A DNA stretch of 64,000 bases from Acorus gramineus (taxonomy: Eukaryota; Streptophyta; Magnoliopsida; Acorales; Acoraceae). The position numbers and the translations under genes were made by a program. Below are positions 2,766 to 46,391 of the stretch, piece by piece; within the stretch, counting starts at the first letter, position 1, and each line of letters starts with the position of its first letter. The notes beneath the pieces are model-generated. The model saw only the letters and a list, made by a program, of their open reading frames with translations, did no database searches and was not told the DNA's origin. Location of the stretch: contig CM060856.1 of assembly GCA_030737835.1 (NCBI GenBank), positions 2,452,952-2,516,951 on the forward strand, in the 5' to 3' direction.

Positions 2766-3730
2766 CCCGGGAAACGTCCGGTAGGGATTTGGCTCTGCCT
2801 TCGAAGTTCACCTCTTCAACTAATAAAGTCGGACAAGCAGCCTTAGTCCTCCATTACGCAGGAAGTTGCAGCCTATACCTCTTCTTCAAGGCTGACTTGC
2901 CTTTGGAGGCGGCAGACCGTTCACCCACTTCTTCGAAAACGGCAGAGGGAGAAGCTTCACTGAAGGAAGAAGATGCATCGACCCCCGAAGACAAGCCGGC
3001 AACCTTCGAAGAGGAACCAGGGGCCCTAGCTGTGGGGAGGTTGATGATTTTGCTGAAATCCTTATCCTCCAACTCTTGAACCCCGGCGATCTGATCGAAC
3101 TTGACAATTGACAAGTCTAGGGTTGCACACTCCAAGTCATCTGCAAGGAGCATATGAGATTCATCGGCTATGAAAGAAAAGGTAAATAAGGCATAGAAGT
3201 CCAATGATTTTTATGCTCACCCAATTTCGTCGGACGAAGACAACATGGCACCCTAGCCTCTTCACCCGGAATGGGAGCAGGAAGCACCCAAGGACCACTC
3301 AGTTGCACAAGGCATTCATCCCTCCATCCGCTGTCGGATGAAGGAAGCTTTTCCACGAGAGGGACCGCACCCGGTCTCGCCTGAAGATAGTCAGCATGCT
3401 CCGACTTCCTCAAACGTACAGGTGGTGGATGTTGTCCACCCCGAGTTGAAGCTGCAACTTGCGGTTGATTGTGACAACGCACATCAGCACCCTTAACAGA
3501 TTAGGGGAGCATTGCACCGGGTGAAGCTTGAATCGGCGCATGTAGTCCCTGATCAACTCAGGGAGAGGAAAAGAAAGGGAGATCCTCAGCATCTGAGAAG
3601 GATACATGAAGAGCTGCTCAGGGCCGCTGCCCTTAAGCTCATTTACGGTTCTGAAAGGTGTAGGTGTGATGATGATGGATTCAGGAATCGACAGGGAGGA
3701 CCTTAGTTTCCAAATGATGTCCATCAACAT
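2766..3730 (-). pseudogene. Antisense gene aORF2 of element B1 (N-terminal half, spliced)
   Basis: Read on the minus strand, against gag-pol. Exon 1 (3221-3730) starts at an ATG in the context GCGCCACCATG. It encodes a block around F-P-L-P-E-L-x-x-D-Y-M-R-R-F ... N-L-L-R-V-L-M-C-V-V, resembling the plant 'putative gypsy type transposon' family (Pfam PF04195, recalled), then a G-W-R-D-E-C segment. The intron (3141-3220, GTGAGC...TTGCAG) is 80 nt; splicing joins KL to DDLECATLDL in phase 1 and gives an open exon 2 rich in Ser, Ala and Glu up to the A1 junction. One lost base after HHLY shifts the frame in exon 1. The gene is truncated at 2766. Its function is unknown. Confidence 0.65.
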
Positions 3731-7893: not shown

Positions 7894-7900
7894 TATAAAG
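7894..7900 (+). promoter_or_regulatory. LTR TATA box (B1)
   Basis: TATAAAG in the context GCCTATAAAGAGGTCGCGCG, followed about 20 bp later by GCACTC. The same block occurs in every family B LTR here (14322, 25986, 34327, 48725), which supports it as the core promoter of the element. Confidence 0.65.
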
Positions 7901-8102
7901 AGGTCGCGCGCTAAGCACTCTACATGCCCAGTCAGACAGTCAAGTACAGTCATTCATTGAGTCAAGCATAGCCAGTCATTGTGTGTCATTTTCTATACAG
8001 TCATTGAGAGAACAAAATCATAGCAAAAAAATTCATATAGCCCATGTTCATTTTTCCCAAGAGATTTACAAATTTAACTGAAGGGAAAAAATATCTACCG
8101 CA

Positions 8103-10928
8103 AAAAGAAATTGAAAATCCTTTGTTGGAGTTGATGGGTATTCAAAACAATAAATCTTTAAATTGAAGACCTATTGGAGCTCAGAGATCTTCAAAAGTCT
8201 AAAATCTCCAATGAGAGTCTTCAAAATGAATATTCGTATTAGAGATGCTCTTAAGGACGATCTTGGGCCGATCTATATCTTTTGTTTCTATTTTTCCCCT
8301 AACATTAAATTAAGAGCTTTGATACACGCAGTCCGTTTTACAGCCACATACGTTATAATAATGTAGCATATACTACACTATCATAGTGTATGCTACACTA
8401 TCATAGTGTATGCTACAGTTAGTTTTTTCATTTTTTTATTATGAAAAAAAATACATTAATGTATTTCATTACATATTTTATTTTATATAAAAACATACAC
8501 TTCAAATAGTGACAAAGAGTGAGTGCATAATTTTATAAAAAAAAATAAGATGGACTGCGTTTGTGACTGCAATGCGTATATCTTTTTCCTTAAATTAAAT
8601 GCCACTGCCAAAAATAATAAAAAGTCATTGCTCTTTGTCCGTTCCTCGTGAAGTGACTGTGATACAATTGACGGTCAAAGTTGAATTAATGGAGCATTTC
8701 GAGGTGGGAAAGGTCGGGGAAAGGGTGGGCCCAGAAAATGAAGCTTACGTCGGGATTCTGGTTTCTTCTTTTTGGCCCGTCCAGCTCTGGAACACTATCT
8801 TATTGAGACAGAATCTCTGACGCCTCCCCCTCCCCCCACCCCCCTTCTTCCCCCTCTGAAAAAACAGTTGCGCCCAAACCAACCCCTCCCCCCCTCCCCA
8901 AAATACACGACACTTCCCTTCTCAGGTCAAACCCGCCCACGTCTCGGATTAGACTCTCAGATTTATTCCCCAAATGCCCCCATTCTTTCCGAAGAATAGC
9001 CATTCAAAAACTGAGCCTCCGTTTGTTTGGACGTAGAGTAAGGGTCGGAATACTGTGGAATAAATCAGAATAGTTGGTTTGGGTTGTTTGACAACCTTGA
9101 ATACTCATGAATAAACTATATCAGAATAACAACAACTCTTCCGCTCATTTTTATGCCTCCGCTATTACGCTATCGCTTCTATGTTTCCCACCTTTGTTTC
9201 TCACCCCAAAACCCACTGGGCTAACAAGAACTTCTCAGTAGCTTTTTTGTAAAAAGCTATCAAGTGATATATGTATTCCAATCAATCCTTGGAATTAAAG
9301 TTATTCCATCAAAGAATATGTTAGACACTCTCAAATCAACTGTTACCATCTCTTATAAATTACTTGTCAAATCAATTATTATCATTTTTTTCACCTTTTA
9401 TAAATTTTCATCCATATTTTATTTACATTTTATACAAATAACAAAAAATTTGTTATTATGATTTACAAGGATAATAATTTAAAACACAATCAAACTGTCC
9501 AAATACAAAATCAATTATTTCACTACTATACTCATTTATACTAAAATAAATATATACTCAAGGAAAATTCCAATTCTAATTGCATCTTGAATTAAAATAA
9601 AAAAAAAAGTAACAAGATATGCATTATAAGGTAAGGAAACTTTATTTAATTTGCCTTGACAGAGACGACACTGTTCCCACGACCACTAAATTATGCCTTC
9701 GATCTTGAACAGCTTGATATAGTAACATTAGCATTGTTTTAGAAAGAAATGCTTAGATTGCTTCTTTTTTTTTTTTTACAAGCTTTTCACTAGAATACAC
9801 ATTCAATAATCTAGGGGCAATCAAGGTAGCCTACTTTTAAATATTTTACAAGCTGCCAAAATTTATTTTCCTGATTCTTTTATTCTTTAATTATTGCCAC
9901 GCCAGTACAGTAAAAATAGAAACACAAAATAAATTTACCTAAGAAGTGCAAAACCAGCTTTTCTATTTATTTCTTTAGTTTTCACCCTCATATTGGGAGG
10001 GGGGACCATGCAACGGAGGAGTGGTGTTGACGTGTCGAAGAGAGGAGCTGTTGAGATTCGTGAACCCACTTTTAGTAGGTTCCATCGAAGTCTGTCGTTC
10101 TGCAGCCGATGCTCCTCGGAATTATTTTTTCGTGTGTCGTCGTCGCCTTTGCATATATATATCATAATATTATTACCACCCCGAATGACAAATCTTTCTG
10201 GGCTTCCTGCGACGCATCTTTTTTCTTATCATGACCACCCATACCCTGGTTTCTGCGGGCCACTATTCCCTAAATAACCCTGTTCCATTCCAACACCAGA
10301 CATTTACTATTCATTACTGGAGACAGGTTAATCTTGGGTCAGAATAGAGAAAGTGAACGAATCTTGCCATCGCTGCACATAATTCACTGTTCGTATTTGA
10401 TGTGAAAAACTTTGCATGGACTGACTACGACCACCTTTTTCTTTCTTATACTGTGGTTGTACACTTGTACCCTATGGATAGATGGTACTGATAAAATATA
10501 TATTCATTTATATTATATGAATAACAATCATGATTAACGATGAGAAAAAACTATAAAAAGGACAAAGAAGATTAGATTTCTAAGATTAAGTGGACCCAGA
10601 CAGGTATACAAATCACGCCAGATAATAAAGCAAATATAAAATAATCTATTTTGCATGGGAAAACGAAAAAAAAAAATCACCATAAGCTAGCGCATCTACA
10701 GTAGCTCTTAGTAACAGTACCTCTCTCAATTGCATCCCTCACCACCCATTCGACATCGTCTCCCTCCTTACATGTGTCACTCTAATTATCTACTCCATTC
10801 ACTATCACCACCGATAAAACAAAACCAACCCAACATGATAAACAACGACCACAAAAGAACAAAAAGAAACAGAACCCTATCATCCTTCCTCTCTCTACAA
10901 AACTCAATATTTAATAAGTTTTACAGCT
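8103..10928. other. AT-rich intergenic region without recognisable genes
   Basis: Flank between element B1 and the 3' end of the bHLH gene. It has stop codons in all frames at short intervals. It holds a small inverted-repeat element (8318-8580), a pyrimidine-rich stretch (8820-8900) and poly-A/T runs. I see no conserved protein or RNA gene. Confidence 0.6.
8318..8580. repeat. Possible small MITE-like element with inner palindrome
   Basis: The left end (GATACACGCAGTCC) and the inverted right end (GATATACGCA...GCAGTCC) are similar over about 25 bp, and the inside is AT-rich. At 8363-8416 a 22-bp unit is repeated in tandem and contains the near-palindrome ACACTATCATAGTGT. No target duplication is clear, so class and limits are uncertain. 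Confidence 0.35.
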
Positions 10929-13881: not shown

Positions 13882-14536
13882 ACTAGGATGAACGTGGGTC
13901 TACCGTGGGACCCGCAAATTTGAGTTCCAATCCTTGGTCATAATGACTCTTCTAAATGTGCTGACACGACTAGATTTAGTGTCCAATTGGGTGGTGTGGC
14001 ACACGAAGGCGAATAGACCAGACATGAGGTATGGTCGGTCGACCTTACTCCTCAAAGGCATGAGGTGAAGCATACGGGCGGGCATCAAGACACCCCGAAC
14101 AAGAAGAAGAAACGGTTAGAAGACCACTAACACATGTAACTGCCAAGGTAGCATTTAAGGCCCATTACCAACAGAACGTGGGTAGTCAAGGACCGATGTG
14201 GAACATAAATACCGGGGACGTTTCCCTGAAAAAGGCCCACTAAGCACTTAGTGGCAAGGCGGTTACAAGGGCATTTAAAGAACTACGTGTGACTTGATCC
14301 CCAGGGGGTATGTGGGCAGCCTATAAAGAGGTCGCGCGCTCAGCAATCTAAAGGCACAATCAAGAAAGGTCAAGAGAGTTACCCATTGAGTCAAGCCCAA
14401 TCATTGAGCTCTATTTGTGTTACTTCCTATTCAGTCAATGAGAGAATCGAAGCATAGCTGCGAGAATTCATATTGCTTGAGTTCTTTTTCCCAGTAAACT
14501 TACAAATCTAACTGAAGGGGAAAAATATCCTCCACA
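13882..14536 (+). repeat. 5' LTR of B2 (5'-truncated)
   Basis: Matches the 3' LTR from its GAACGTGGG block onward and ends ATATCCTCCACA directly before the PBS. The first 55-60 bp (TGTGGAGGTAAAAATCC...) are absent. Only one 60-bp hairpin unit is present against three in the 3' LTR. The TATA box is at 14322-14328. Confidence 0.85.
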
Positions 14537-14539
14537 GTT

Positions 14540-14556
14540 TGGCGCCGTCTGTGGGA
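14540..14556 (+). other. Primer binding site of B2
   Basis: TGGCGCCGTCTGTGGGA starts three bases after the LTR end. The TGGCGCCGTCTGTGGG form is common in plant Tat-type elements. The site at the same place in B3 (34472-34489) is decayed to TGGCACCGTCTGCAGAAA. I do not assign the tRNA. Confidence 0.8.
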
Positions 14557-14583
14557 TATTGAAACAAAAAGGCAGTGTCCGCA

Positions 14584-16258
14584 ATGTCAGGTCCGAGTGA
14601 CACTAATGTAGGAGGATGACAAGAATAAGACGTTCTCCCATCCGATGTTGCCGACGGCTCCCCGGAAACCTTGGCTAGTCAGGTCCAGGGCCTCAGGCGG
14701 GTAATGGAGTCCACGCAGGAAACTCTATTTACCCGTCTTCAAGAGTCAATGCAGCAGATGATCGAAGCCTCGATGCAACAGTTCTATACGAACGTGGATC
14801 GACAACAGCCAGTCCAGGAAGAAATCTAACTGCCACCTCCTGTACGGCCCAACCCCCCTACCATCAAATCTGAAGGTTCGGAAGGAAGTACCTCTTCCTC
14901 CAATCAGAGGCAGCGGTCTCGTCGGCGCTCGCGCACCCCTCGTGCCAGTCGACAACCCAATGAAGGACAAAGGCGCGGGCGCTCACCTCATGGAGAACGC
15001 CCCGCGGGACGAGAGGCCTCTTGGAGGCAAACACACCAGGGACGATCGATCTTACGTGAGGTTTCAGAAGGGCGTTGGTATGATTCTCCACCCTGCCCTC
15101 GAGCTGGGGAAGTGGTTGCGCAGCCGCGTTACGCTTTGCGCTCTGAGGTACGGCGCGTTCCGAATCACAAGATGGTGGAGCACGCAATACGAGGATTCGC
15201 CTCCCCGTTTTGCACAGAGATTCTCAGGGAACGACTTCCTCGGAAGCTCGTCCAGCCCAAATTCAAGATGTACAATGGCACGATGGATCCCTATGATCAC
15301 ATCTTGGTATTCCAACATTCGATGGCCTTGTATGAGCTCTATGATGAGCATATGTGCCGCCTCTTCCCTTCCAGCCTGGAAGAGGCCGCTTTGACATCGT
15401 TCCACCTCCTTCCCCCTGCGACAATCAGAATTTTCGAGGAGCTCGGCACTATGTTCGCTGAGCACTTCATCTGTAGTCGGCGAAGGAAGAAGGACCTCGG
15501 CGATCTCATGAAGATCCAGATGCTGTCAGGAGATGATTTGGCAGTTTTTCGATCACTTCTGCATCCTTAAATTCGAAGTGGAAGACTGCAACGAGGACGC
15601 TGCAATAATGGATTTCTGGAATGGCCTGCCATTTGGAAATGACCTCAAGGAGTCGCTTATTAAGCGTACCCCATACGACTTGCGTGATTTCATGGGGCGT
15701 GCTAAAAAGTAAGGCAAGGTGGAAGAAGAATCGAGGACCCTTAAGCAGGCGATGGCTACGTCCCGGTCTCCACCAATAGTTGCCGCCCCGTCACCAGCAA
15801 TAAAACGTCTGCAGGAGCTGCATAAGAAGGACCAGCGGAGAGAGAAGGGCAAGAAGCTTGGTGCCTCAACAAACGAGGTACGAGAAGGACGGGGGATGTT
15901 CTTCAAGGTCCCTCCGTCATAGATCCTATCTAAAATCCAGAGGGAGACGTGGTTCCGATGGCCCGCACCCATGAGGAGCGACGAATCAAAGAGGGACCAA
16001 TCTCTCCGCTGCGACTACCACAAGAGAGTGGGCCATACTACCCACCAATGTCGAATCCTCCGGGGCTTCTTGGAGACCCAGTTCCAAAAGGGACGATTGA
16101 AGGAATATGGTTCTGTCGAGAAACACCCGACTTTCGGTGAGCGGCATGTGACGAGCATTGGCCCTAATACATCGACAGGGGTCATTGATGTCATTTTCAG
16201 AGGCGTACCACATTACATCTCACCAAAAAGTGTCTGTCGAGACTCGAAGACGATGTAG
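14584..16258 (+). pseudogene. Gag of element B2 (broken)
   Basis: Structural protein of the virus-like particle. The ATG at 14584 (MSGPSD) matches that of B3 (MSNPSD), but stop codons follow within 15 codons. Best preserved is 15112-15570, with the Retrotrans_gag core around N-G-T-M-D-P-Y-D-H-I and F-E-E-L-G-T-M-F-A-E-H. After a frameshift Gag continues to a variant zinc knuckle CDYHKRVGHTTHQC near 16010 (Cys-x2-His in place of Cys-x2-Cys), typical of Tat elements. At least two frameshifts and several stops are present. Confidence 0.75.
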
Positions 16259-16270
16259 GTCTCCTTCGAA

Positions 16271-16612
16271 ATGATGCACATCGACCAGGAGTTGAAGCTG
16301 GTCGTAAAAAGACAAAGAAGCGGTAATGAAGGAGCTATCACTTTCTCCGACGCCGACCTGGAAGGAGTCCAAGCCCTACACTCAGACTCCCTGGTAATCA
16401 CCCTGCGTATCTCTAATTTCAACGTTAAGAGAATTCTCGTTGATACAGGAAGCTCGGCCGACATCCTCTTTATGAAACCCTTTCTTCGGATGGGGTTAAA
16501 AGCCGCTAACCTCACTCCCACGAAGGACCCTCTAGTCGCATTCAATGGAGCACGGTTGTCCCCGCTGGACGAATCAAACTGCCGGTTCGAGCAGGGAATC
16601 GGACCACTATGA
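16271..16612 (+). pseudogene. Aspartic protease domain of B2
   Basis: Gag-pol processing protease. Residues about 22-68 carry the Tat-type ITFSDADLEGV...LVITL stretch and the active-site motif DTGSSADIL (Asp at residue 58). The frame shifts near 16600. The downstream YNAIIGRTWL motif, normally the end of this region, is in the next frame (16609-16863). The catalytic motif is intact but the polyprotein is broken on both sides. Confidence 0.8.
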
Positions 16613-16863
16613 CGGAGTTCATTATCATGGACCTCCCGTCTCCATACAACGCCATCATCGGACGCACCTGGCTGGCGGCGATGAAGGCGATTCCGTCTAC
16701 GTACCATCAACGGCTCCGTTTCCCCACGGCCGAGGGGATAATGGAGATTCGAGGAGACCAAGTTGCCGTAAAGTGGTGCTACATTGCAGTGATGGCAGGG
16801 AAGTCGGCCCTACTAGACTTCAAGGAGCAACTTGAGGACGGAAAAATTCATCCAAAAAGGTAG

Positions 16864-17950
16864 CAATTACTGCAGAACCGAGTCAAGGCCGATGAGCGCC
16901 GACCTGGTCCCGAAGACAGGGTCCTTGAAGACCTCGAGAAGGTCCCGATAGACCCTGAGAAATACTTTCTGGTCGGAAGTTTACTCTCCACAGAAGAGAG
17001 AAAGGCGATACTCGACCTCCTCATCGAGAACAGGGACATCTTCGCCTGGAAGCCTCAAGACATGCCAGGAATTGATCCTGAGGTTGCAAGGCCATCGGCT
17101 GTCCATATCGCCGATCATCCGTCCAGTCCGACAGAAGCAGCGACGAATGGCCATCACACACGCCGAGGTGGTGCGAGACGAGGTGAATAAACTCCTGGCC
17201 GCAGGGTTTATACATGAAGTGCGACACCCCAAGTGGCTGGCCAACACCGTCGTGGTTCCAAAGAAGAACGAGAAGTGGCAGGTTTGTGTGTACTTCACCA
17301 ACCTAAACAGCGCATGTCCGAAGGAAAGCTTCCCACTTCCGAAGATCGACCAACTGGTAGACTCCTCATCGGGTAATGAACTAATGAGTTTTATGGATGC
17401 TTATTCAGACTACTACCAAATCCCAATGCACGAGCCCGACCAGGAGATGACAGCGTTCATAACCCCTACAGGCATTTACTGCTATAAAGTGATGCCGTTT
17501 GGGTTAAAGAACGCAGGGGCCACTTATCAGAGGTTGGTGACTAAGATCTTCCAACATCAGATCGGTAAGACTGTTGAGGTCTACATCGACGACATGATGG
17601 TAAAAAGTGAGCGCCGAGTCGACCACTTGGCCCACATGGAAGAGATCTTCACTGTGCTGCGTAAGTACCGCCTCAAACTAAACGTGACAAAATGCTCCTT
17701 CAGAGTCACCTCGGGCAAGTTTCTGGGGTACCTGACAACGCAGCGAGGAATCGAAGCCAACCCTGACCAAATCAAGGCGATATTGGATATGAAGCCCCCA
17801 CGGAACAAAAAGGAGGTACAGAAGCTGGTGGGGAGGTTGGCCGCTCTCAATCGATTCATCTCTAGGGCCACTGATCGATGCCAGCCATTCTTCCAGTTGC
17901 TGCGGAAGGCTCAAAGATTTGAATGGATGCCAAAAATGTCAGAGGGCATT
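16864..17950 (+). pseudogene. Reverse transcriptase domain of B2
   Basis: Copies element RNA to DNA. From 17072 it is open for 293 codons. Motifs in order: VVPKKNEKWQVC, SFPLPKIDQLVD, FMDAYSDYYQI with the first catalytic Asp, PFGLKNAGATYQR, and YIDDMMVKS with the catalytic Asp pair. The usual CVDFT is CVYFT here (Asp to Tyr). The N-terminal linker (KPQDMPGIDPEVA) is in another frame, so one frameshift lies near 17080. Confidence 0.85.
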
Positions 17951-18810
17951 TGAAGAAATCAAAAAATACCTCAGCACGCCGCCGCTTCTAGTATGTCCTT
18001 CCTTAGGAAACACTTTGCTCCTCTACATTACAGCCTCTGAGCACGCTGTTAGCTCCGGGCTATTGAAGGATATCGATCGAGGGCAAAGGGCAATCTACTA
18101 TGCAAGTAAGAAGCTCAGCGGGGTGGAGACCAGGTATTCCCGCATCGAAAAGCTTGCGTTTGCCTTGCTCGTTTCCGCCCGAAAACTGCGCCATTACTTC
18201 CATGCCCATACGATCCATGTCATCACCGACTCACCGCTCAAGGCTGTATTGCGAAAGGCGGACGTCGCAGGACGATTGCTCAAATGGGTGGTGGAGCTCT
18301 CAGCTTTTGAGGCCCAAGAGTGCAATCAAAGGACAGGTCATCTCAGACATCATCGCCGACTTTACACCTGCCCAGGAGCAAGTCTGTTTAATATCTGACT
18401 GCAGGCCAATTTCCTGGACACTCCATGTCGACGGGGTGTCCAACCGAAAAGGGGTAGGAGCAAAGATGATCCTACACAATGAAGACGGTTTCCTGTTTGA
18501 ACACGCAATCAAACTAGGATTCAACGCTTCTAACAACGAAGCCGAGTACGAGGCACTCATCGCGGGCTTGGAATTCACCGTAGATCTCGCCGTCCATAAA
18601 TTGGCGATCTACAGCGATTCCCAGCTCGTGGTTTGTCAAAGCACTGGAGAATATCAGATGAAGGATGATCGAATGGCGGCTTATCAGGGCTACACCCGTA
18701 CTTTGCTTGAACGAATCGGTGAGTGGAAAATCCACACAATCGATTGCAAGCAGAATACTCATGCTGACACTCTAGCAAATCTGGCAAGTGCACTAGAGGA
18801 AGACCCATCC
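17951..18810 (+). pseudogene. Two RNase H domains of B2 (Ty3-type and archaeal-type)
   Basis: The first domain (about 17990-18310) has the AIYYASKKL and TRYSRIEKLAFAL motifs of the degenerate Ty3/gypsy RNase H. After a frameshift near 18300 a second domain (18412-18800) carries HVDG, EAEYEALIAGLE, YSDSQLVV and HADTLANLAS; these are the Asp-Glu-Asp residues of the archaeal-type RNase H acquired by the Tat lineage. This second domain lies in an ORF open to 19026 and looks catalytically complete. Confidence 0.85.
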
Positions 18811-19026
18811 CAGGAGATCCAGGTCGAATTCTTGAGGGAGCCAAGCATAACCCATCCCAAAGAGGTTATGGCAGTGGAGTCAATAACCCGGGAACCGACC
18901 TTGATGGACCCCGTTCTGTCTTACTTGAAAGGCGACTTCCTCCCAGTAGATAAGGAAGAGGCCAGGAAAATCAAGAACCGATCCGCTCGGTTCTTGATAT
19001 CTGATCAGGGCTTATTGTTTAAGTAG

Positions 19027-20115
19027 AGCTTTCTAGGCCCTCTCCTTAGGTGTGTTAATCCCGAAGAAGCTAAAGAAGTATTAGAAGAAATGCATTCGGG
19101 GGTGTACGGAAGCCAGTCGTGCGTTGACAGCCGGATACTTCTGGCCAACCCTTGCAAAGGACTCGCTCGACCTGGTGAGGAAATGCCACAAGTGCCAACG
19201 ATTCAGTCCCCTGATTCACCGACCAGCTGGGGATTTGAATACACTGTTAAGTCCCTAGCCATTCACTCAATGGGGGTTCGATATAGTCGGGCCCATGCCC
19301 TTGGCGCTGTCTCAGAAGTGATTCCTTCTTGTCACCACTGATTATTTCACCAAGTGGGTGGAGGCTGTGGCCCAAGCCAGAATCCGCAACATCGAAGTAC
19401 AAAGTTTCCTTTGGAAGGAGATCGTGTGTCGATTCGAAGTGTCGAACACCATAATCTCCCACAATGGGACACAATTCGATAATGCCACCATGAGGGAGTT
19501 CTGCGAGGAGTTGGGCATAAAGCACCTTTTCTCCTCTCCGCGCTACCCCCAAGGAAATGGTCAGGCAGAAATCACCAATCCTACCATCCTGGACGGGATC
19601 AAGAAATGGCTCAACGCGGCCAAAGGCAACTGGGTGGACGAGCTTCCCTCAGTGTTATGGGCATACCGCACCACGGCGCGAAGGGCCACAAGGGAGACTC
19701 CCTTTTCCTTGGCTTTGGCGTCAAGGCTGTAATCCCCATAGAGCTCGGGATCCTGACATTTTGGGTCGAGAATTTTGAGCCACGGATTAACAAAGAAAAT
19801 CTCACGTCTGATCTCGACCTGAGGGACGAGCGGAGGGAAACAGCTTCCATCAGAATGGCGAATTACCGAAAATAGATCGCGCGAATCTACAACAAGAGGG
19901 TTTCACGATGAGGCTTTCGAGTAGGGGACCTGGTCCTTCAAGAAGTATTCCCCGAATCCTGAAAAAGATCTGATGGTAAGCTCGGGCCCAGTTTTGAAGG
20001 CCCGTACAATGTCATCAGACTGGGCCCCAAAGGAGCTTATTATCTAGAACGAATGAATGGAGAGGCACTCATGAGATCTCGCAATGTAATGCATTTGAAA
20101 AAGTATCACTTCTGA
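19027..20115 (+). pseudogene. Integrase of B2 (catalytic Asp lost)
   Basis: Inserts element DNA. The N-terminal HHCC region (about 19085-19240) is frameshifted. The core has the first Asp in TTDYFTKWVE and the Glu in GNGQAE, but the second Asp, normally in SDNG, is His here (SHNGTQF, about 19460). The C-terminal domain continues past stops and frameshifts to KKYHF at 20112. With the Asp-Asp-Glu triad broken this copy cannot integrate by itself. Confidence 0.85.
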
Positions 20116-20780
20116 AATAAAAAATTTTTTATTTATTCATGAGAAATATTTCATGTGAATAAGAGCCCGTTCGAGGTCGCGCGTGAACTTGGTTTCAAAT
20201 ATATAGCGCTCCAAGGAGGTTGCGAGTATAGCACTCCACAGAGGTCGCGCGTTGATCCAGTTCAGGTCGATTGGATGAGCACTCTTTTTAAGAGGTCGCA
20301 CGGGGGACGCCCCATCCATCGATAAGCACTCGAGTAAAAGGTTTGCAAAAGTGAGACACATAGGTTACACTCAAACGATGAGGTCGTTCGGAAGTACAAG
20401 CTTCCCCCTATGCTCACACGGTCGCATAGAGCCCAGGCTCTACGACCAACCCTTGGAGGTCGCTAGGAAAGGACGAGCAGGATTAGTCCCAGGACTTAAT
20501 TCTGAAAGGGTACCTCCCTCTCGTCCTAAGCACTCCATCTAGTAAATCCGCAAGCAGGACCTGAAAAAATGCACAGGACACACTCGCACAACGAGGACGA
20601 AAAGAGGGATAACCTTCCCCTGCCATTCTAGGGGCCCCGGCCCTACGGAGGTCGTGATGACGGGATAAGTCAGAGTTAGTCCATCGAGTGGGCGCAAAAC
20701 TCTATTATCACGACAATAAGCACTCCAAACATTCAGATCATGCGAAAGCAAGCAGACATGTAAAAGACAAGTCATTTATG
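20116..20780 (+). repeat. Array of GAGGTCGCGC and GCACTC motifs after integrase (B2)
   Basis: No coding potential. The motif GAGGTCGCGCG and its variants recurs about every 50-130 bp (for example near 20173, 20240, 20292, 20379, 20456, 20647), alternating with GCACTC or AGCACTC. In the LTR the same two motifs occur once each, directly after the TATA box. The same array occurs in B3 (40105-40540). It separates pol from the 3' end of antisense gene aORF2. Confidence 0.7.
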
Positions 20781-20790
20781 AAAACATTGT

Positions 20791-23131
20791 TTATTTTACA
20801 AAATGTCTAGGTCTGAGACCCGTCATCAGGGCTAGAATCACAGCGGTGATACGAGGAGAGACGTTGCTGGATCTATCTTCATAACCTTGACGATATCCAC
20901 AATTGTAGTTCTTCTCGGCACAAGTCGTCAAAGAATCCAAAAGTTCCTTCAATTGGTCCCTCATAGTCGCAAAGGCTTCTGCTCGACCCCTCGACAGACC
21001 ATCCTTGAAAGCAACTGCGCGATCGGTTCGAAGTTCACAGAGCTTGACTTGCTGCTCTTGCGACTCACGCATTAGGGCCTCGACTCGCTTTTCCGCGTTG
21101 TGCACCCGCAAGGAAAAGGAAGCCTGATCAAAAGACTGAGAGAAATTCAGCTCAAGGAGCTCTCTCACACGATCTTCAGCAGCAACAGCCCGAACCTGAG
21201 CAGCAAACATGTCCCAACGAGCAGAGGATTCGGCAAGTTTCACGGCAAGACGCACTCGCTTTGCGATCACAGTCTGTTCCTCAGCCGACTTAAGCTGTGC
21301 TTCTCTGCGATGAGCGAGCTCTCGAGCCAACTTCGGGAGGTCTTCAGACTTCATCGCATCCAGGCTTCGCTCGTTGAGTACCTGCCAGATCACAGAATTC
21401 TAAAAAGCAAATGGTTAAAGGCTTGAAGAAGAAACCTTTGAAGATAGGAGCCGAACACTTACGTTATAAAAACTCCAGCCAAGCCGGGTGAAAAGCGCTT
21501 CAGTCATAGCCCGGCGAGCACAATTTTAGTTGCCCTCAAGAAGGCAGCCCCTGAGCTGTGTGCAAGCTAACTCCTTGCCGGCCCGATCTGCCAGAAGGCC
21601 TCCGAAGGAAGTGTCGGTCGTAGCCGCAGGAGCAGGGACTGAGGGGGTTTCGGCAGGAACCGAGCAAGGAACTTCAGCGCCCACGACAGCTAAAGATGGA
21701 GCCTCGGACGTCAGAACAAAGGGTGCATCCGAGCGAGAGGGGCCCAAAGGATCAACCACAGCTGAAGCGACTAAAGGCATCTCTGTCACAGTCAAAGCGA
21801 CTGTGGGCATTCCTGCCACAACTGGGGGCACCTCCGACGAGGCGACGATCCCTGACACCGAACCTTCCGTTGTAGCTGGGGTAACCCCAGGAGCGAAAAT
21901 CGAAGAAGCAACGATCACTACCTCCTTGACAAGGGAGGGCTCGGCATGGGTTGCTCCAACTGAGACTCTGAAGGCAGCGGCTGGTAGATGGGAAGCGGGA
22001 TCCGTAACCACCACAATTTCTGGAGAGGAGGGTACCTCCACCGTCTCTGATGCACAAATGATTACAGAGCTAGGTGGGAGTTCCTCTCCATCAGAAGACA
22101 CGACAGGCTCACTAGCAACCGTGCCAACAGCGCCCGAAGGTGAGTCGTCCCCTAAGGGAGCCCGAGATATGTCCAGTAGGGCGTTGACTCGGTCCTCAGG
22201 GTCCACCCGTTCAGACTCTGAAGCCGAGCGAGCAACCTTGTTCCACCGCTTTGAAGCAAGGGGAAGCCTAGATCTCTTCTTCGAAGCTGACCTAATCTTG
22301 GGAGCGGCTGAGTGCTCGCCCGCTTCCTCGGGGATAGCAGGAGACGATGCTTCGGTGAGGGCAGAGGATGCGTCAACTCCCAAAGACGAGCCGGCTACCT
22401 TCGAACAAGAGCCGACAGCCCTGGATGCGGGGAGGTTAAGGATTTTATGGAAATCTTTTTCCTCCAGCTTCTGAGCCCTGGAAATCTAATCCAGCTTCAC
22501 CATCGATGGGTCTGGGGGCGCACGCTCCGAATCATCTGCAGGAATCATGAGGAGGCATATTGGCTAAAGAGAGAAGGCAAGGGCAGATAAGGTGTATAAG
22601 ATCCGATGATTTTGTGCTCACCCAATTTCACTTGGCAAAGGCGACATGGCACCTACAGCATGTCACCCGAAGCAGTGGCAAGAAGCGTCCACGGGCCGGT
22701 CAGGTTCACAAGGTATCCATCCCTCCATCCACTGTCGGAGAAGGAAACTTTTCCACGAGATGGACCGCGCCAGGCCTCGCCTGAAGATAGTAGGCGTGCT
22801 CCGACTTCCTCAAACCATCCAGATGGTGGATGTCATCCACCCCGAGCTGAAGCTGCAACTTGTGGTTGATCGTGACGACGCACATCAGCACCCGTAACAG
22901 ATTAGGGGAGCATTGCTCCGGGTGAAGATTGAATCGGCGCATGAAGTCCCTAACCAACTCAGGGAAAGAAAAAGAAAGGGAGATCCTCAGCATCTGAGAA
23001 TGATACATGAAGAGCTTCTCAAAGCTGCTGCCTTTAAGATCATATATGGATCTGAAAGGAGTAGGTGTGATGGCGATGGAATCAGGAATCGACAGGGAGG
23101 ACCTTAGTTTCTAAACAATGTCTATTGACAT
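20791..23131 (-). pseudogene. Antisense three-exon gene aORF2 of B2
   Basis: Minus-strand gene. Exon 1 22622-23131 (ATG context GCGCCACCATG), intron 22536-22621, exon 2 21463-22535, intron 21400-21462, exon 3 20791-21399. Exon 1 has the hydrophobic LVRDFMRRF...LLRVLMCVV block (PF04195-like, recalled). Exon 2 is 1073 nt, exactly 357 codons plus the two bases needed after a phase-1 intron; it encodes a low-complexity Ser/Ala/Val/Pro/Glu region. Exon 3 is a long charged coiled coil (ELAHRREAQLKSAEEQ) ending CGYRQGYEDRSS. Breaks are TAG at codon 7, one lost base in exon 1, two nonsense codons in exon 2, and a frame change at the C-terminus. The intact gene would be about 730 codons. Function unknown. 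Confidence 0.7.
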
Positions 23132-23228
23132 GGTGGCGCGAGGAGAAATTCGAGAAGAGGTAAAATTTGAAAACGAGCAGGGGATTCGATTTCTGAATTC
23201 TCTCTCCTCTTCTCGTCGAATAATGGAA

Positions 23229-23237
23229 ACTTATAGA
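23229..23237 (-). promoter_or_regulatory. Probable TATA box of aORF2 (B2)
   Basis: TCTATAAGT on the minus strand, about 98 bp upstream of the aORF2 ATG, in the same position as TTTATAAGT of B1. The surrounding 23240-23716 has no reading frame and lies between the two antisense genes. Confidence 0.5.
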
Positions 23238-23716
23238 ACGGTCCTCCCTTGAAAAATCCCCGCAATCATGACAGGAGCGCAAAAATCGAAATCATGGAAG
23301 ATTGCCGTCAAAATCTTCTTCAAATATCGAGCTGGCGAGAGAAACGAGGTGCCAATTTTGAAAAACGTGCAGCCTACGTGGTGAATTTATTATCACGAAT
23401 TTACCACGTGGCATGGAGAAGAGACGGAACGACAAGAAAGCCCCAACAAACATGTGGGCACGACTAGAGAAATCCTGTTCGTGAACCTGGTTCATAAATC
23501 CTGTTCGAGGATCCTGTTCACGGGTGATCGCAGATACGACAAGTTTTTGGGACTCCATGACCCACCAATGGAATTGTATAGCGAGGAGATGTAATAGTCA
23601 AAGCGAGCGAGTAGATAAAAGACGATCAAGGTTGAGCAAAGAAAGTAATTTTTTATTCATTAATTGGATAAAGGTTACAAAAAAAGGGAGGGGTTTCAAC
23701 CCTCTGCTCGGTCTTC

Positions 23717-24970
23717 TACTCATCCTTTCCCACGAAGTCTCCTCTCCCTCATAGCTTGGTGCAGTCCGGGAAGCTCTTCGTTGCTCATCTCTTGAAAACC
23801 ACGAGAATGGTCAGCATAGCCCAAGCGGTATCCGCTGATGAAGTCCAGAAGTAGATCTTCCTCATCGCCCTCACAGGCTTCCCAAAGCGACCGCAGCTGA
23901 TGAGTTATGGAGAGGGAGGCGGCATGAACAGAGGCTTACAAATTCCTTGAAGGGCCGCCTGAGGGGAGGAGGACACTCTATAGACAGCCTCTGGGAGTAG
24001 GAGCAGCATCAGCCCCAGCGCCCGAGGTCACTGGGGGTACCGCCGGCAGGGCGTCAGCATCCGTGCCACGGGTGGAAGGAACAGGTTCCTCAAGAGGAAC
24101 AGACGATGAAGAAAAAGAAGAAGAAGACGAAGATGATTGAACTGCTGGTGGTGGAGATGGTGGAACAGAATGCGGAGGAGACAAGGTTAAGTCCACCGGC
24201 AGGGCAATGGAATTTGATCCAATACCCAGCCGGAGGAGCCTCGAGGAACGCCGCCTCGCCCTGTTGAACAGGGTGATGGTAGGAGGAACTGGACCTGAGC
24301 CACCCGCTGAGTCGACCACACCGGCAAGAAAAGTTGCAACGGGTGGAGCGCGTCGTGGTTCCTCCAATTCAAGGAGCTCCCACCACGATCGGTCCGGATA
24401 GTCCATCACCCGAGAGATGTCGCTCATCTTCACCTCCTCGACCTCCGGCCTGGGGGCATCCACCATTGGCCTCCGAGGGCGACACAAATGGCGATGGGAC
24501 GAATCCCAACCATCTGGCATCCAGATACCCCAGACCCGAATCCGGTGACTCGCCAAGTCGTGGATGTCGCCCCGTGCCATGCCAAGGACCAGCTCTGGCG
24601 CTTTGGCCCGACGAGAGATGTAGAAGGGTGGGGACCGCCTGGAGGATGAATCCTTGACCTAATAGATCCAACGGACCTCAGTCAGGCCCAGCTCAACTCC
24701 TGTATTCTTCCCCAACGCAACCACGCACATCAAGATGCGGTATACGTTGGGAACAACCAGGATGGGATGGAGACCAAAGAAATCAAGAAACTCTGCCACC
24801 AAGCGTGGCAGAGGGAGAGAAAGACCCCCATCTGTGAAGTAGCTGGGATGGAGGAGAACAGAATCAAGATAAAGGGTGGGGACCTCATCTTCGGCCAACT
24901 CGTCAATCACGAAGTCAAACGAGAGGCCCAACTCTCTGTGGAGGGCTGCAGCAGTGGCAGTTTCCTCCAT
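23717..24970 (-). pseudogene. Antisense gene aORF1 of B2
   Basis: Intronless, minus strand, 418 codons from MEETATAAALHREL to the stop at 23717, in one frame throughout. Order: LHREL start, LSLPLPRLVAEFLDFFG with NVYRILMCVV (PF04195-like), then W-x-P-D-G-W-D, EEPRRAPPVATFLAG, a poly-Ser tract, and the C-terminal region. Two nonsense codons break it: TAG at 24659-24661, where B3 has CAG, and one at 23978. Frame conservation over the rest suggests it was under protein-level selection until recently. The middle is acidic and serine-rich; no catalytic motif is visible. Confidence 0.7.
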
Positions 24971-25030
24971 GATAATGAAGGAAGGCGTGAGATGGGATGA
25001 GGGGCTTCTCCCTCTCAACCCCCCCCCCGC

Positions 25031-25038
25031 TTTTTATA
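25031..25038 (-). promoter_or_regulatory. TATA box of antisense gene aORF1 (B2)
   Basis: TATAAAAA on the minus strand, about 60 bp upstream of the aORF1 ATG. B3 has TATATAAAGG at the same place (47735-47744). This suggests that aORF1 is transcribed from its own promoter, against the element's genomic RNA. Confidence 0.6.
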
Positions 25039-25354
25039 TCCATTGAAGTGGTGCGTTGAGAAGACAGCCGCACTTATTTCGCTGCAAGTATCGAGGAGTA
25101 ATCATCAATGCCAATAAAAAGGGGATTCATAGAATCTGAAGGGATGCTGACGTTTTGATTTCCCATACGCCATTTAGAGGCCACGCGCCATTAAGGCTGA
25201 CAAAGCAAAATCCGCCGTCAAATCCTAGGTGGGTCAGAGAATCCTGAGAAGGCAGACGACTGGATCTTTGACCCCCAAAGAGGAATGGGGGCAAGGTGAC
25301 TTATCATGATCTCCTGCTCTCTCGACAAGCCAAAAGAGCAGAAGAGGGGGCATC

Positions 25355-26200
25355 TGTGGAGGTAAAAATCCTCACCGCGACACGTGTCACCTCAAGGGGT
25401 AATGCGTCACACCAGGACGAACGTGGGCCTACCGTGGGACCCGCAAATCCGAGTTCCAATCCTTGGTCATGATGACTCTCCCAGATGTGCTGACACGACT
25501 AGATCCAGTGTCTAGTTGGGCGGTTGGGCACCCGAAGGCGAGTAGTCTAAGGCACGACCAGACATGAGGTCTGGTCGGTCGACCTTACTCCTCGAAGGCG
25601 AGTAGTCTAAGGCACGACCAGACATGAGATCTGGTCGGTCGACCTTACTCCTCGAAGGCGAGTAGTCTAAGGCACGACCAGACATGAGGTCTGGTCGATC
25701 GACCTTACTCCTCGAAGGCATGATGTGAAGCATACGGGCGGGCACATCAAGAAACCTTGAGCAAGAAGAAGAAACGGTCAGAAGACCACTAACGCCTGTA
25801 ACTGCCAAGGTAGCATTTAAGGCCCATTACTAACAGAATGTGGGTCGTCAAGGACCGACATGGAAGATAAATACCAGGGACGTCTCTTTGGAAAAAGGCC
25901 CACTAAGCACTTAGTGGCAAGGCGGTTACAAGGGGCATTTAAGGAACTACGTGTGACTTGATCCCCAAGGGGTACGTAGGCAGCCTATAAAGAGGTCGTG
26001 CGCTCAGCACTCTAAAGGCACAATCAAGAAAGGCCAAGAGAGTTACCCATTGAGTCAAGCCCAATCATTGAGCTCTGTTTGTGTTACTTCATATTCAGTC
26101 GTTGAGAGAATCGAAGCATAGCTGTGAGAATTCATATTGCTTGAGTTCTTTTTCCCAGTAAACTTACAAATCTAACTGAGGAGGGAAAATATCCTCCACA
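25355..26200 (+). repeat. 3' LTR of B2
   Basis: 846 bp, TGTGGAGGTAAAAATCC...AATATCCTCCACA. It is preceded by a purine-rich tract (AAAAGAGCAGAAGAGGGGG, 25332-25350). It contains three 60-bp hairpin units (25533-25718) and the TATA box at 25986-25992. The flank to the right is AT-rich host DNA. Confidence 0.9.
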
Positions 26201-26689
26201 ATATATATAATATTACATCGACATTGGGATAAATGAACTATCCCCAAAAACTTGTATATATTCTACACATTCATGTATTGTTTTCATCACTGGTTGAGTG
26301 CATCTATTTGTAACTAGATATATAAAGCTTTGGGTAATCTGCTGAGAAAAGCCACATCGAATTAGATAAAAATCTTCAAAGAAGATCCTTGATTCCCTTT
26401 GATACCTAATATGTCAATGGAACCAATATTTGTCGACACCCTTATCATTAAATACTCTTACAGTAGGTCCCTGGTGACCATCGATACCATGTCTGTCGAT
26501 AGAAATACACGTTGTTGACACTTCTATTGTCAATGGGATGCGATGGTGCTGGTTTCCTTCTAAACATTAAAAACAAATATTTTAAGAGGTGGAGTGAGTA
26601 CCTAATGCGGTGGTAATAACCACACCCATTGGCTAATTGCATTGTCATTATATTATTTTTATATATAAATCTAGTGGGGAACACCACCC

Positions 26690-32340: not shown

Positions 32341-33745
32341 AAATAGAATCGGACCTATTTAAACCAATAAAATTATTGATGGATGTCTTGCTTTTGAATT
32401 TAAAATTTTTTCTGTTTTTTTTTTTTTGCATTGATTTTGGATCTATATGTATCAATTTTTCTTTAGATGTGAAAATAAGTATTTTTTTAGTCTTTTTAGG
32501 ATAGTGTTTTTTTTATATTAGTAATATTTGATGGATTCGTCAAATTACGTAATATTTTGCTTTCATATTATTAATATTATATTATTAATATTAATATTAA
32601 TATTATATTATTAATATTTTTTATATATTTTTTTTTGTCAAATTACGTAAGTTTTCATCTCATATAATTATGATTTTTCTTTCATTTTTTCTACTTTTGA
32701 TTCGTCACAGAGTAATCTTCAATGTATAACAAATTTATTAGTTTATCGTGTTTATCTGTTCATTGTTATCTTGTTTAATATTTTATTTTGAATTGTTAAC
32801 AATGATTGTTTGTTCTATTCGTTTTTATTTATTAAAAAAATTATATTTATTCAATTCTTTTTCTTAGTGTTGTTTGATCAAATGATTAACTCGTTTACAT
32901 GTAATCTTGCTGGATGAAGGCTTAATTTTAATCTAATGTTCTTCCAATGGCTCACAATTTTTGGGTCCGACAATGTTTCTTATATTCTTATCAAGTTACT
33001 GCTATTTTTTATGTTGAGAAGTTAATACTAGTTATTCATGTTTGTTATTACGCGCATTGCGTGTGCCCTTGACTAGTGTTCATCAATACCTTATAGTTTT
33101 GGCCCAATAAATTAAAGAGTCTTAGTACACAGGCTCCATTATTTAAGCCCCATTAACAAGCCCCATGAGGTGTCACTCCCTCATTGTTTGTTTGTTTGAC
33201 TTTTAAAAAAGGTTAAAAATGTAAAATATAATATTATCCTTATTCAAATCCCATATTTTCCTTTCTCATTAAACCCATTCCCACTTTTTTTGAAAAACAA
33301 ATCAACCTATTCGATTTTGAAAATCCATTTTTTTCAAAACCAATTCAAAATTAAAAAAACCATTATCTGAATTCTTAAAAGAAACTGAAAAAACGAATTC
33401 ATTATAAAAAAAAACCCATTTATTCAAAAACACTTAAAAATATGAAATTTTTATTTGCAACCTCTTATTCAATTAGAAAACAATGGCGGTAAAGAATAAT
33501 CAATGTTTTTTTTAAAACGTTGCTGTTAATTTGATGATTATTTAATTACAATCATCAGACAAAGTATTTGCGATGCATGCAAATTTTTTTTTCAATGAAT
33601 GCAAAAATAAAACACAAATCACGATATAAAACAAGAGTTCAGAATAAAAGTCTGTTACATTTATAAATGTAACTCAATTTCAATAATAAATTGCATTAAA
33701 GGTCAGTGACATTTGTAAATGTAACTGACTTCTGTTATATGTAAC

Positions 33746-34468: not shown

Positions 34469-34516
34469 GTGTGGCACCGTCTGCAGAAATTTTGAAACAA
34501 AAAGTCAGTGTTCGCG

Positions 34517-39039: not shown

Positions 39040-40104
39040 GAAGTCTTGGAAGAGATGCATTCAGGAATATGCGGGAGCCATACGGCCTCAAGATCCTTGG
39101 CTCGATGTGTATTGACTCCCGGATATTTCTAGCCGACCCTCGTGAAAGATTCACTCAATTTGGTGAGGAGATGTGACAAGTGTCAGCGATTCGGTCCGCT
39201 GATCCATCGACGTGCTAGGGACTTGAACACACTTCAAAGTCCTTGGCCGTTTGCTCAATGGGGGTTCGATATAGTCGGACCGATGCCCATGGCGCCGTCT
39301 CAGAAGCGGTTCCTTCTGGTCGCCACCGACTACTTCACCAAATGGGTGAAGGTTGTGGCCCTGGCTAGGATTCGTGATGTCGAAGTACGAAGTTTTCTGT
39401 GGAAGGATATTGTATGTAGGTTTGGAGTGCCGAACACTATAATCTCTGACAACATGACACGGTTCAATAACGCCACCATAAGGGAGTTTTGTGAGGAGTT
39501 GAGAATAAAACATATGTTTTCCACTCCTTACTACCCCCAAGGTAACGGTCAGGCAGAGATCACCAACCATACTATCCTGGACGGGATCAAGAAGTGCCTC
39601 GACGCGGCCAAAGGCAACTGGGTGGAGGAACTCCCCTCGGTGTTATGGGCGTACCGCACAACAACTAGAAGGGCTATAGGAGAAACTCCATTCTCCCTGG
39701 CCTTTGGCGTGGAGGCGATAATTCCTATAGAGCTCACAATCCCACCCTTTCAGACCAAGAACTTTGAGCCACGCGCTAATGAAGAAGTTCTCGCGTCCGA
39801 CGTGGACCTAAGGGGCGAGCGAAGGGAAGCGGCTTCCATCAGAATGGCTAAGTACAGGAACCAAATAGATCGAAGCTACAACAAAAGGGTTTCACGACGA
39901 AGCTTTTGAGTCGGAGACCTGGTCTTACAAGAGGTATTCCCCGAATCCCGAAAGCGATCTGATGCTAAGCTCGGACCCAGTTTGGAGGGACAATATAAAG
40001 TCGCCGGGCTGGGTAAAAAAGGGGCTTACTATTTAGAATGGATGAATGGAGGGACACTTATTAGATCTCGCAATGTAATGCACTTAAAAAAGTACTACTT
40101 TTGA
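39040..40104 (+). pseudogene. Integrase of B3 (catalytic triad intact)
   Basis: Open for 255 codons from 39142. CDKC of the HHCC zinc finger, then the core with Asp in ATDYFTKWV, Asp in SDNMTRF and Glu in GNGQAE, so the Asp-Asp-Glu triad is present, unlike B2. A stop after VSRRSF (39907) separates the C-terminal domain (VGDLVLQEVFPES), which ends at KKYYF before the stop at 40104. The core is the best-preserved enzyme domain in the window. Confidence 0.85.
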
Positions 40105-40600: not shown

Positions 40601-41451
40601 AAAATGTCAGTCACTCTGGGACCCACCATCGAGCCCAGATTCTGAATCAGAAGAAAGAGCGCTAGCGATGTGAGGAGATACATTGTTGGATCTATCTTCA
40701 TATCCTTGACGATATCCACGATTGTAGTTCTTATCGGCGCATATCGTCAAAGAACCTGAGATCTCCCTCATCTGATCTTTCACCGTCGTGAAGGCCTCAT
40801 CTCGACCCTTTGTCAGACCGTTTTCATAAGAGGCCGCGGCATCAGCTCAAAGACCACAAATAACAGCTTGTTGATCTTGTGACTCCTGCGTCAGAGCTTC
40901 AACTCACTTCTCTGCATTCTCTGCTCGCAAAGAAAGCTTGGCCTGGTCGAAGGACTGAGAAAGTTTCAGGTCGAGAAGCTCTCTCACTCGCTCCTCAGCA
41001 GCAACAGCACGAGCTTGAGCAGCGGCCAAGTCACGATGAGCAGAAGATTCAGCCAGTTCTGCAGCAAGACGAGCTTGGTTCACAATCGCAGTTTGCTCCT
41101 CAGCAACCTTCAACTGTGCTTCTCTGCGATGAGCAAGATCCTGCGTTGTCTTCAGGAGGACTTCAGCCTTCCTCACACCAAGTTCACGCTCGCTGAGTGC
41201 TTGAAGGACAGAGTTCTGAAAAACAAATCATCAGGACACTGAGAAATGAAATTGAGCAATAGAGTTGAGCGTCATACATTGTAGATGCTCCAACCAATCT
41301 GAATGAAGAGCGCCTCGATTGTAGCCCGGCGAGTGACCTCCAGGTCGTCATCAAGAAGGCAACCCCTGAGTTGGGCACAAGCAACGTCCTTGTTGGCACG
41401 CCCAGTCAAAGGACCGCTAGAAGGAGTGCAGGCCATTGCTGCCGCTGCAAG

Positions 41452-44546: not shown

Positions 44547-46391
44547 GCAAGAGTCTTGATGGGGGAAGCACCGGCAGCTGCGACTGAAGGAGCCTCTATG
44601 CGAGTAACATCAATTGCCTCGACAAAAGATTCTTCTGACACTTGGGCGAAGAGTACACACGGGCGAGAAGGAACTGGAGAAGCGACCCCAGTTGAGACAA
44701 CTAGGGTATCTCCGGGGAAAGTTCGGTGGGGAATGTGTTCTCCACTACAATGGCTGGGGCACCTTCAAAGAAACTACAGAAGAAGATGTGACGCCCATCA
44801 CCGCAACTAGGTTCACCCTGGTGTTAAGACCCGAAGGAGGCGCGGGCTCAGCCACCTCGGCTGATGACAGCTCCACACGGGCTGCATCGACTGTCAAAAC
44901 AACAGGACGAGAGGCCTCGATTATTTCAACTCCAGGAGAGGAGGGAACCTCTACCGCCTCCAGCAACGAGCTGACGGTAGGACTTGGTAGATGTCCCTCT
45001 TCAGCAGAAGGTTGAGCAGACCCCGCTCCTTGATCACCAGTAGCACTTGCGGGCAGATCGCGTAGACCCCCGGAAGGAGAAGTCAAAGGTACGCCAAATG
45101 AGACAGCTACCCCATCTCCTGTGTCAACCTCCTTGACCGTTGGTGCCAGGCGAGAAATTTTGGACCTACATTTCGAGGGAAAGGTTAAAAAAGATAATTG
45201 CTTTTATGCTTACCCAATTTCATCGGACGAAGACGACGAGGCACCTTCGACCCACCATGCGGTCCGGGAGTTGGAAACTCCCAGAGATCGGACAACTGCA
45301 CAAGACACTCTTCTCTCCACCCACTATCAGAAGAGGGAAGCTTTTTCACGAGAGGAACCATGTCTTTTCTGGCCCGAAGGTAGAAGGCGTGCTCTGCTTT
45401 TCTCAGATCATACAGGTGGTAGATGTCATCTACCCCGAGATCAAGATGCAGCGAACGGTTGGTGGTGACGATGCACATCAAAACCCTTAACAAATTAGGA
45501 GAATATTGTGTCGGATGAAGCTTAAACCGACACATGAAATCCTTGACCATTTGAGGGAGAGGAAAAGAAAGGGAACTTCTCATCATCTAAGAAGGATAAT
45601 GTAAAGCGAATTAGGGTTTTGATGCTTCATGAGATCAAAAAACTTCTATGTAGTGGGTGCGACACTGATGGAATCAGGGATGGAGAAGGAGGATCTCAAT
45701 ATCTGAACAATATCCATCGACATGGTGATGCGAAAAGAAAAACGAGAAGAAGTGAAGTTCAAAAACGAAGGGGGAATTTGATTTTTTGAAATTCTCTCTC
45801 TTCTTCTTCTCGATGAACGATGACTACATTAAGGGGAAGGCTCCTCCTTGAGAACCTCCCGTAATCATGGTGAAGGCGCAAAATTCAAGATCATTGGAGA
45901 TTTGCCGCCGAAATGTTCTGTAGAAATTGAGGGACAGATGGCATAAAAGATGAGGCGTCGGTTTTGACAGATGTGCAGCTGACGTGGCAAGTTTATGACG
46001 TATTTATCTCAAGCTTTCCACGTGGCATCACAGAAGGATGGATCGTCATGAAGATCTTCATGACCGGATAGACGCGACCAGGTACATCCTGTTCGTGGAT
46101 ATGCATCAGATCACTTCTACTCGTTCAACTCAGATTAATCTATTCGCCTAGTGCGGGTTAATTGCTGAGAAAATCGAGGTGCCTTAGTTTTTGAAGCATT
46201 GTGGCGTGAAAACGTAAACATGCAACGAGAAGAACAGTCTATGTTCATTTGGGACTTGACTAAGAATGCGAGAACACAAGACAAGAGCAAGGTTGACTCA
46301 AGAAGTAATTTTTTATTCATTGATTAGATAAAGATTACATAAAAAAAGAAAAAAAATCCTATCTAGGATGATCAGCCCTCTGCTCTATCTC

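Follow-up and report, generated by a model that had tools for sequence, protein, structure and literature searches.

Two putative introns in an antisense accessory gene of Ogre/Retand-type retrotransposons from Acorus gramineus

Can a long terminal repeat (LTR) retrotransposon, an element copied through RNA, hold a gene with spliceosomal introns? The question is raised by a 64,000-nucleotide stretch of contig CM060856.1 from Acorus gramineus (GCA_030737835.1, positions 2,452,952 to 2,516,951 of the forward strand; hereafter the window, to which all positions refer), where three related elements, B1, B2 and B3, contain two genes apiece that run antisense, on the minus strand, in the region separating pol from the 3' LTR: an intronless aORF1 and, as we read it, a three-exon aORF2. 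We consider it probable, at roughly 80% (0.82), that aORF2 represents an accessory gene of an Ogre/Retand-type element, running opposite to gag-pol and made of three exons, whose two GT-AG introns were spliced. The core of the argument is that the exon frames evolved under protein-level constraint and connect only when both introns are taken out.

Exon frames and intron borders of aORF2

The gene is most complete in B2, where exon 1 (22622..23131, minus strand as for all antisense features below) measures 510 nt, starts with an ATG at 23131 that is aligned in all three copies (homologues at 3221-3730 in B1 and 45214-45723 in B3), encodes a TRP28-like region and ends with a single base of a codon. 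Between B1 and B2, the identity of this exon falls from 89% to 71% inside it (3221-3730 against 22622-23131), a pattern that template switching between subfamilies would leave in a mosaic copy. Exon 2 (21463..22535) is rich in Ser, Ala, Pro and Val. The first-pass annotation had described it as 357 codons plus two bases, and the arithmetic holds (1073 nt = 2 + 357 x 3), but two in-frame stops lie inside. Its homologue in B1 (2766-3140) ends where an LTR-like piece starts; the frame does continue there after intron 1, as had been claimed, for 94 codons beyond the junction codon, but it then meets a stop, and the homologous sequence breaks off at 2766. In B3 the homologue is divided by an insert into two parts (about 45180-44519 and 41460-41278). 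Exon 3 (20791..21399 in B2; 40607-41215 in B3) is charged and ends with a GYRQGYEDRS motif; it has no Pfam match, and its coiled-coil look was judged by eye alone. A search with the exon-3 alignment against prokaryotic and viral contig collections retrieved no relative, a null that the makeup of these collections renders weakly informative.

Intron 1 occupies 22536..22621 in B2 (86 nt, GTGAGC...CCTGCAG) and 3141..3220 in B1 (80 nt, GTGAGC...CTTGCAG, with gaps of 5 and 1 nt relative to B2), whereas B3 retains the donor, GTAAGC at 45213 (45212..45213), and the aligned acceptor is missing. Intron 2 lies at 21400..21462 in B2 (63 nt, GTAAGT...TTTTTAG) and at 41216..41277 in B3 (62 nt, GTATGA...TTTTTCAG). 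These borders, the retained donor of B3 and the phase-1 boundary at intron 1, where one codon base precedes the intron, agree with the first-pass annotation; intron 2 is in phase 0. All four complete introns have U2-type ends, with GT..AG, a consensus donor (weak at intron 2 of B3) and a pyrimidine-rich acceptor. Removing them yields one conserved coding frame, with agreeing phases and low ratios of nonsynonymous to synonymous substitution rates (dN/dS) on both sides. The introns are also richer in T than the exons (33-44% vs 25-29%) and hold gaps of 5, 1, 1 and 2 nt, against none or 3 nt in the compared exon segments, which had been trimmed of one 1-nt frameshift per copy in exon 1 and of the ragged 3' end of exon 3.

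In the predicted frame, the dN/dS interval falls wholly below 1 in six of eight exon comparisons, with values of 0.22-0.32. Between B2 and B3, exon 1 gives 0.24 (0.12-0.39) and exon 3 gives 0.22 (0.14-0.32), a value as low as which was reached in 0 of 1000 column shuffles; exon 2 gives 0.32 (0.19-0.53) between B1 and B2 and, at its end, 0.22 (0.08-0.54) between B2 and B3. The end of exon 1 is at 0.23 both between B1 and B3 and between B2 and B3, with intervals below 1. Substitutions accumulate accordingly at the third codon position, in exon 3 (83 of 152, p=2e-10) as well as in exon 2 (51 of 117, p=0.007) and in its B2-B3 end (24 of 46, p=0.004). Constraint is also apparent in exons 2 and 3 for a plus-strand frame with the same wobble position (0.24-0.41). 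This frame contains more stops than the antisense one, 7 and 10 vs 0 and 2 in exon 3 and, over the part of exon 2 compared between B1 and B2, 2 and 2 vs 1 and 1; a 314-residue sense-strand open reading frame (ORF) opposite exon 2 was on this ground rejected as the coding frame.

The borders were further compared with chance and with their surroundings. Control positions were taken from the B2-B3 gag-pol alignment at a 62-nt spacing on both strands (11,558 positions) and from a B1-B2 stretch at a 79-nt spacing (4,318 positions). A bare GT..AG pair shared within 6 nt occurs at 13% of them (1,502 of 11,558 and 567 of 4,318) and is thus weak evidence for introns, but pairs as good as the observed introns occur at none of either set. 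The strict criterion behind this count (G at +5 in both copies, GTRAG in at least one, and a YAG preceded by at least 58% pyrimidine) was chosen once the introns were known, which overstates the case somewhat. Within intron 1, the donor and acceptor windows, which take in four exon bases, are identical between B1 and B2 at 9 of 9 and 12 of 15 positions (21 of 24), compared with 36 of 60 in the interior (p=0.012). For intron 2, the corresponding B2-B3 values are 5 of 9 and 12 of 15 (17 of 24), compared with 20 of 43 (p=0.047), and its donor window indicates that this second donor is partly decayed. It had been stated in advance that splice sites decaying at the rate of the surrounding bases would refute the reading of a functional antisense mRNA; decay is slower at intron 1, and the result is marginal at intron 2.

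The intronless paralogue aORF1

In B2, aORF1 covers 23696..24970 (approximate ends), with homologues at about 4328-5603 in B1 and about 46372-47568 in B3, where the start was not identified. It forms one long frame with stops, plus a frameshift in B1, and shows no break that would require an intron. Its product has a TRP28-like domain and a C-terminal GYRLGYADHS motif. The PF04195 (Transposase_28) profile matches aORF1 in all three copies (E 1.2e-5 to 3e-4), 0.3-4.8 bits under the curated cut-off, and aORF2 weakly (E 0.0052 in B1 and 0.055 in B2), B3 giving no match; an AlphaFold model of the TRP28 region had a mean predicted local distance difference test score of 48.9, too low to use. The two genes align by profile with E 1e-13 over exon 1 and have in common the C-terminal motif GYRxGYxDxS (shuffle p 0.001-0.0025 in six of six pairings, which are non-independent). 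These similarities mark aORF1 and aORF2 as paralogues. A further conserved stretch, similar in sequence to AATGAATAAAAAATTAC, follows aORF1 in the three copies (23600-23700 in B2, minus strand) and is possibly the aORF1 polyadenylation region.

Because aORF1 is intronless, its protein tells what should follow the TRP28 domain, and it thereby bears on the first junction of aORF2. The aORF2 profile with intron 1 removed aligned to aORF1 over 173 columns with a score of 97.2. When the 60 exon-2 columns were shuffled, the mean was 88.2 and the maximum 89.6, so that none of 120 shuffles reached the observed score. With exon 2 in the other two frames the scores were 87.6 and 87.3, and with the predicted frame minus the junction codon 96.2; one wrong frame and three of the 120 shuffles gave alignments that passed the junction without a gain in score. 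An earlier pairwise version was less uniform, as the spliced score exceeded all 500 shuffles for B1 and not for B2 or B3; its aORF1 stretch included Ser-rich sequence, and the later profile test used a shorter one. Judging from the match to aORF1, the exon 1 and exon 2 parts belong together. The exact junction base is not set by this test because of gaps near the junction.

Weighing the splicing of aORF2

Several observations weigh against a spliced aORF2. The case for splicing is drawn from comparisons of DNA sequences, and all three copies of the gene hold stops and frameshifts, none being intact. Each intron is complete at both ends in two copies only, the paralogue test covers the first junction only, and the start of exon 2 taken alone matches aORF1 weakly (probability 3.9%, E 0.011). 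Introns of 62-63 nt are short for plants. In B3, intron 1 is without an acceptor aligned to those of B1 and B2: the 260 nt downstream of the donor contain 16 AGs, of which seven are phase-compatible, one of them just 5 nt away, and the nearest plausible phase-compatible AG would make the intron 95 nt long, its end being rich in purines. The GTATGA donor of intron 2 in the same copy is weak, and a second in-frame AG, shared by the copies, follows the intron-2 acceptor at 18 nt (B2) or 15 nt (B3); synonymous changes and a 3-nt gap between the two AGs favour the first as the intron end. As for constraint, dS is about 1 and close to saturation. Exon 1 was compared twice between B1 and B2, giving 0.59 (0.25-1.39) and 0.64; both intervals take in 1, substitutions are not biased by codon position, and in the first comparison a plus-strand frame is lower (0.35). 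Low values are not confined to exons either, since three of 12 intron frames (18-24 codons, saturated dS) have an interval below 1. In particular, the exon 1 frame extended into intron 1 between B1 and B2 has a dN/dS of 0.16 (0.08-0.77) and a ratio of nonsynonymous to synonymous proportions (pN/pS) of 0.40, as low as which 24 of 1000 column shuffles fall, or 60 of 1000 with the splice bases omitted, six intron frames having been tested. Exon-3 pieces of intron-like size range from 0 to 392 of 1000 on the same measure; therefore, pieces so short decide little, and the low ratio may reflect chance or an intron-1-retaining form translated a short way.

This mild constraint speaks for an alternative in which there is no intron 1, exon 1 reading on briefly to a stop and exon 2 being a separate antisense ORF that begins at an internal ATG. 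Such an ATG is present, aligned and in frame with exon 2, 13 nt before the end of intron 1 (3153 in B1, 22548 in B2), and separate antisense ORFs are what the published surveys count, in the sections available. This arrangement would leave unexplained that aORF1 holds the matching stretches in one frame, with the spliced aORF2 scoring above 120 of 120 shuffles across the junction, and it would need neither the donor window identical at nine of nine positions between B1 and B2 nor the GTAAGC of B3. Moreover, the read-on stops stand at different positions in the three copies, intron 2 is not accounted for, and exon 3 of B3 has no early ATG. We consider two separate ORFs unlikely. The breaks could instead be those of ordinary decay, in which frameshifts and stops interrupted a once-continuous antisense ORF and the GT..AG at the edges are coincidental, as the damage found elsewhere in all copies and the frequency of loose shared pairs in the controls (13%) would allow. 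Yet the breaks coincide in copies whose four-fold degenerate sites are identical at only 15 of 34 (B1-B2, exon 2) and 34 of 58 (B2-B3, exon 3) positions (23 of 36 in a further comparison), protein similarity reaches both edges of intron 2, and strict shared pairs number zero in the 11,558 and 4,318 controls, which makes decay a highly improbable explanation.

Finally, the introns could be real and the gene could act not through a protein but as an antisense RNA, double-stranded or silencing, in line with a review in whose available sections antisense transcripts are proposed as sources of small interfering RNAs (PMC7264820). A role played by RNA only does not predict the protein-level dN/dS of 0.22-0.32 in three exons, and we give it hardly any credence, although a protein role and an antisense-RNA role could both be present. 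The spliced, protein-coding aORF2 thus remains our preferred reading, and the evidence supports that it was functional while the family multiplied, that is, in the family's past. Of the first-pass claim of an antisense mRNA that "is, or was, functional", the past tense is borne out by purifying selection on the exons, the conserved splice sites and the paralogue test, but the present tense is not, as the three copies are broken.

Host elements, proposed mechanism and known systems

The three elements lie at about 2766-8103 (B1, the interrupted 3' part of a retrotransposon), 13882-26201 (B2) and 33745-48866 (B3). The sense pol of B2 (16952..19026, plus strand) shows the domain order RVT_1 (reverse transcriptase), RT_RNaseH (RNase H, RH) and RVT_3, the last being a second RNase H taken by its position as the aRH, and an integrase core (rve) has a Pfam match in B3 only among the three copies (39133..39909, plus strand). 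According to the parts of the literature available, Ogre and Retand share such an aRH between RH and the integrase (PMC6317226), and elements of this type are reported from flowering plants (PMC6317226, PMC11963269). An aRH, as expected of the Retand lineage (Tat clade, Ty3/gypsy), is found in B2, and the antisense genes expected of the lineage are present, with aORF1 matches to PF04195 that all stay under the curated cut-off. From these features, B1, B2 and B3 are classified as Ogre/Retand-type Ty3/gypsy retrotransposons. Over the aligned stretches, their LTRs diverge by 36 of 521 positions in B2 (6.9%) and 52 of 716 in B3 (7.3%), indicating that these copies are old; these values are far below the exon dS of about 1, so the bulk of the divergence predates the insertions.

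Other features concern the structure of the elements. An LTR-like piece in two direct copies (1536-2765 and 6074-7314, 81% identical) flanks and interrupts B1, whose homology with B2 begins at 2766, ends at 6027 and restarts at 7315; these pieces may be solo LTRs in a nested position or may belong to another element. Tandem repeats of 60 bp (about three units) occur in the 3' LTRs of B1 (7473-7641) and B2 (25533-25719). The insert of about 3 kb that divides exon 2 of B3 (41460-44540) is GC-rich, with simple and tandem repeats, and pieces of it recur inverted at 56154-57755 and directly within 58418-62742. Rfam gave no match at the gathering score.

As to how such a gene might work, the antisense transcript would start upstream of the aORF2 ATG, perhaps near a conserved and perfect G-box, CCACGTGG, a candidate antisense promoter element (minus strand; 23404-23411 in B2, 4010-4017 in B1, 46018-46025 in B3). 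It occurs four times in the window, three of them at this upstream position, with its core 279 (B2), 286 (B1) and 301 nt (B3) from the ATG; none of three TATA-like patterns upstream of aORF2 was common to the copies. The spliceosome would take out both introns from this transcript, and the product, of about 730 residues, would combine a TRP28-like head, a low-complexity middle rich in Ser, Ala and Pro, and a charged, possibly coiled-coil tail. It may work in the nucleus on the expression or packaging of the element itself. The signals of a spliceosomal intron are recognised in the transcript of one strand and not in that of the other. The genomic RNA would be the complementary strand, from which the introns pass unspliced through reverse transcription; by this logic, they would survive copying through RNA because the packaged RNA is the strand opposite to aORF2.

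If this is true, a widespread lineage of plant retrotransposons can have as its antisense accessory gene an ordinary gene with introns that is under selection, and that the element keeps because it is encoded opposite to the genomic RNA. Surveys based on ORF length, with thresholds of 250 codons (PMC6317226) or 600 bp (PMC11963269) in the sections available, would split or miss such genes, exon 1 of aORF2 measuring 510 nt, although the latter also flags TRP28 ORFs shorter than 600 bp. Among its 63 Retand clusters, five have a TRP28 ORF below this length (Sambucus nigra 2, 3 and 4, Camellia sinensis 4 and Camellia oleifera 1). More speculatively, many of the separately reported Retand antisense "ORFs" might be exons of one spliced gene, and aORF1 an ancient processed copy, recaptured after reverse transcription of a spliced antisense mRNA; we find this doubtful, but if it were so, the antisense strand would let a retroelement both keep and reshape an intron-bearing gene.

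Antisense ORFs with a TRP28 (Transposase_28, PF04195) domain are already known in the Retand lineage, and those of maize Grande (gene23), rice RIRE2 and Silene Retand resemble aORF2 in their position between pol and the 3' LTR, their orientation and their TRP28-type N-terminus, with an SMC-like second region in some, as far as the consulted portions of the reports go (PMC11963269, PMC7264820). For Grande gene23, the consulted portion of the review describes transcription from its own promoter and a nuclear protein (PMC7264820). In contrast to aORF2, with its two introns and an adjacent intronless paralogue, these cases are presented there as ORFs with no introns mentioned, and the word "intron" occurs zero times in the main texts of both papers; the review nevertheless calls for a search of "antisense and spliced transcripts". 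More broadly, the portions consulted of PMC11963269, PMC7264820, PMC6317226, PMC8622228, PMC9289625 and PMC4093653 mention no intron of an antisense gene, and a prior report elsewhere is possible. The same portions do mention a sense-strand intron of Ogre, likewise retained in a plant LTR retrotransposon (PMC6317226, PMC9289625), whereas those predicted here lie in the antisense transcript; they also mention splicing of the env-like RNA of barley Bagy2 (PMC7264820).

Two further systems are comparable. The ORF2 of pvRetro13 from common bean likewise encodes a long accessory protein (631 residues), with an SMC-type domain in some of its kind (PMC4093653), and is antisense according to the available part of the review (PMC7264820); it is listed as a single ORF, and "intron" occurs zero times in the text available for PMC4093653. 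The deltaretroviruses (human T-lymphotropic viruses HTLV-2, -3 and -4 and simian T-lymphotropic viruses, STLVs), as described in the portion consulted of PMC8622228, are also LTR elements with a spliced, protein-encoding antisense accessory transcript. Their hosts belong to a different kingdom, and no sequence relation with aORF2 is expected.
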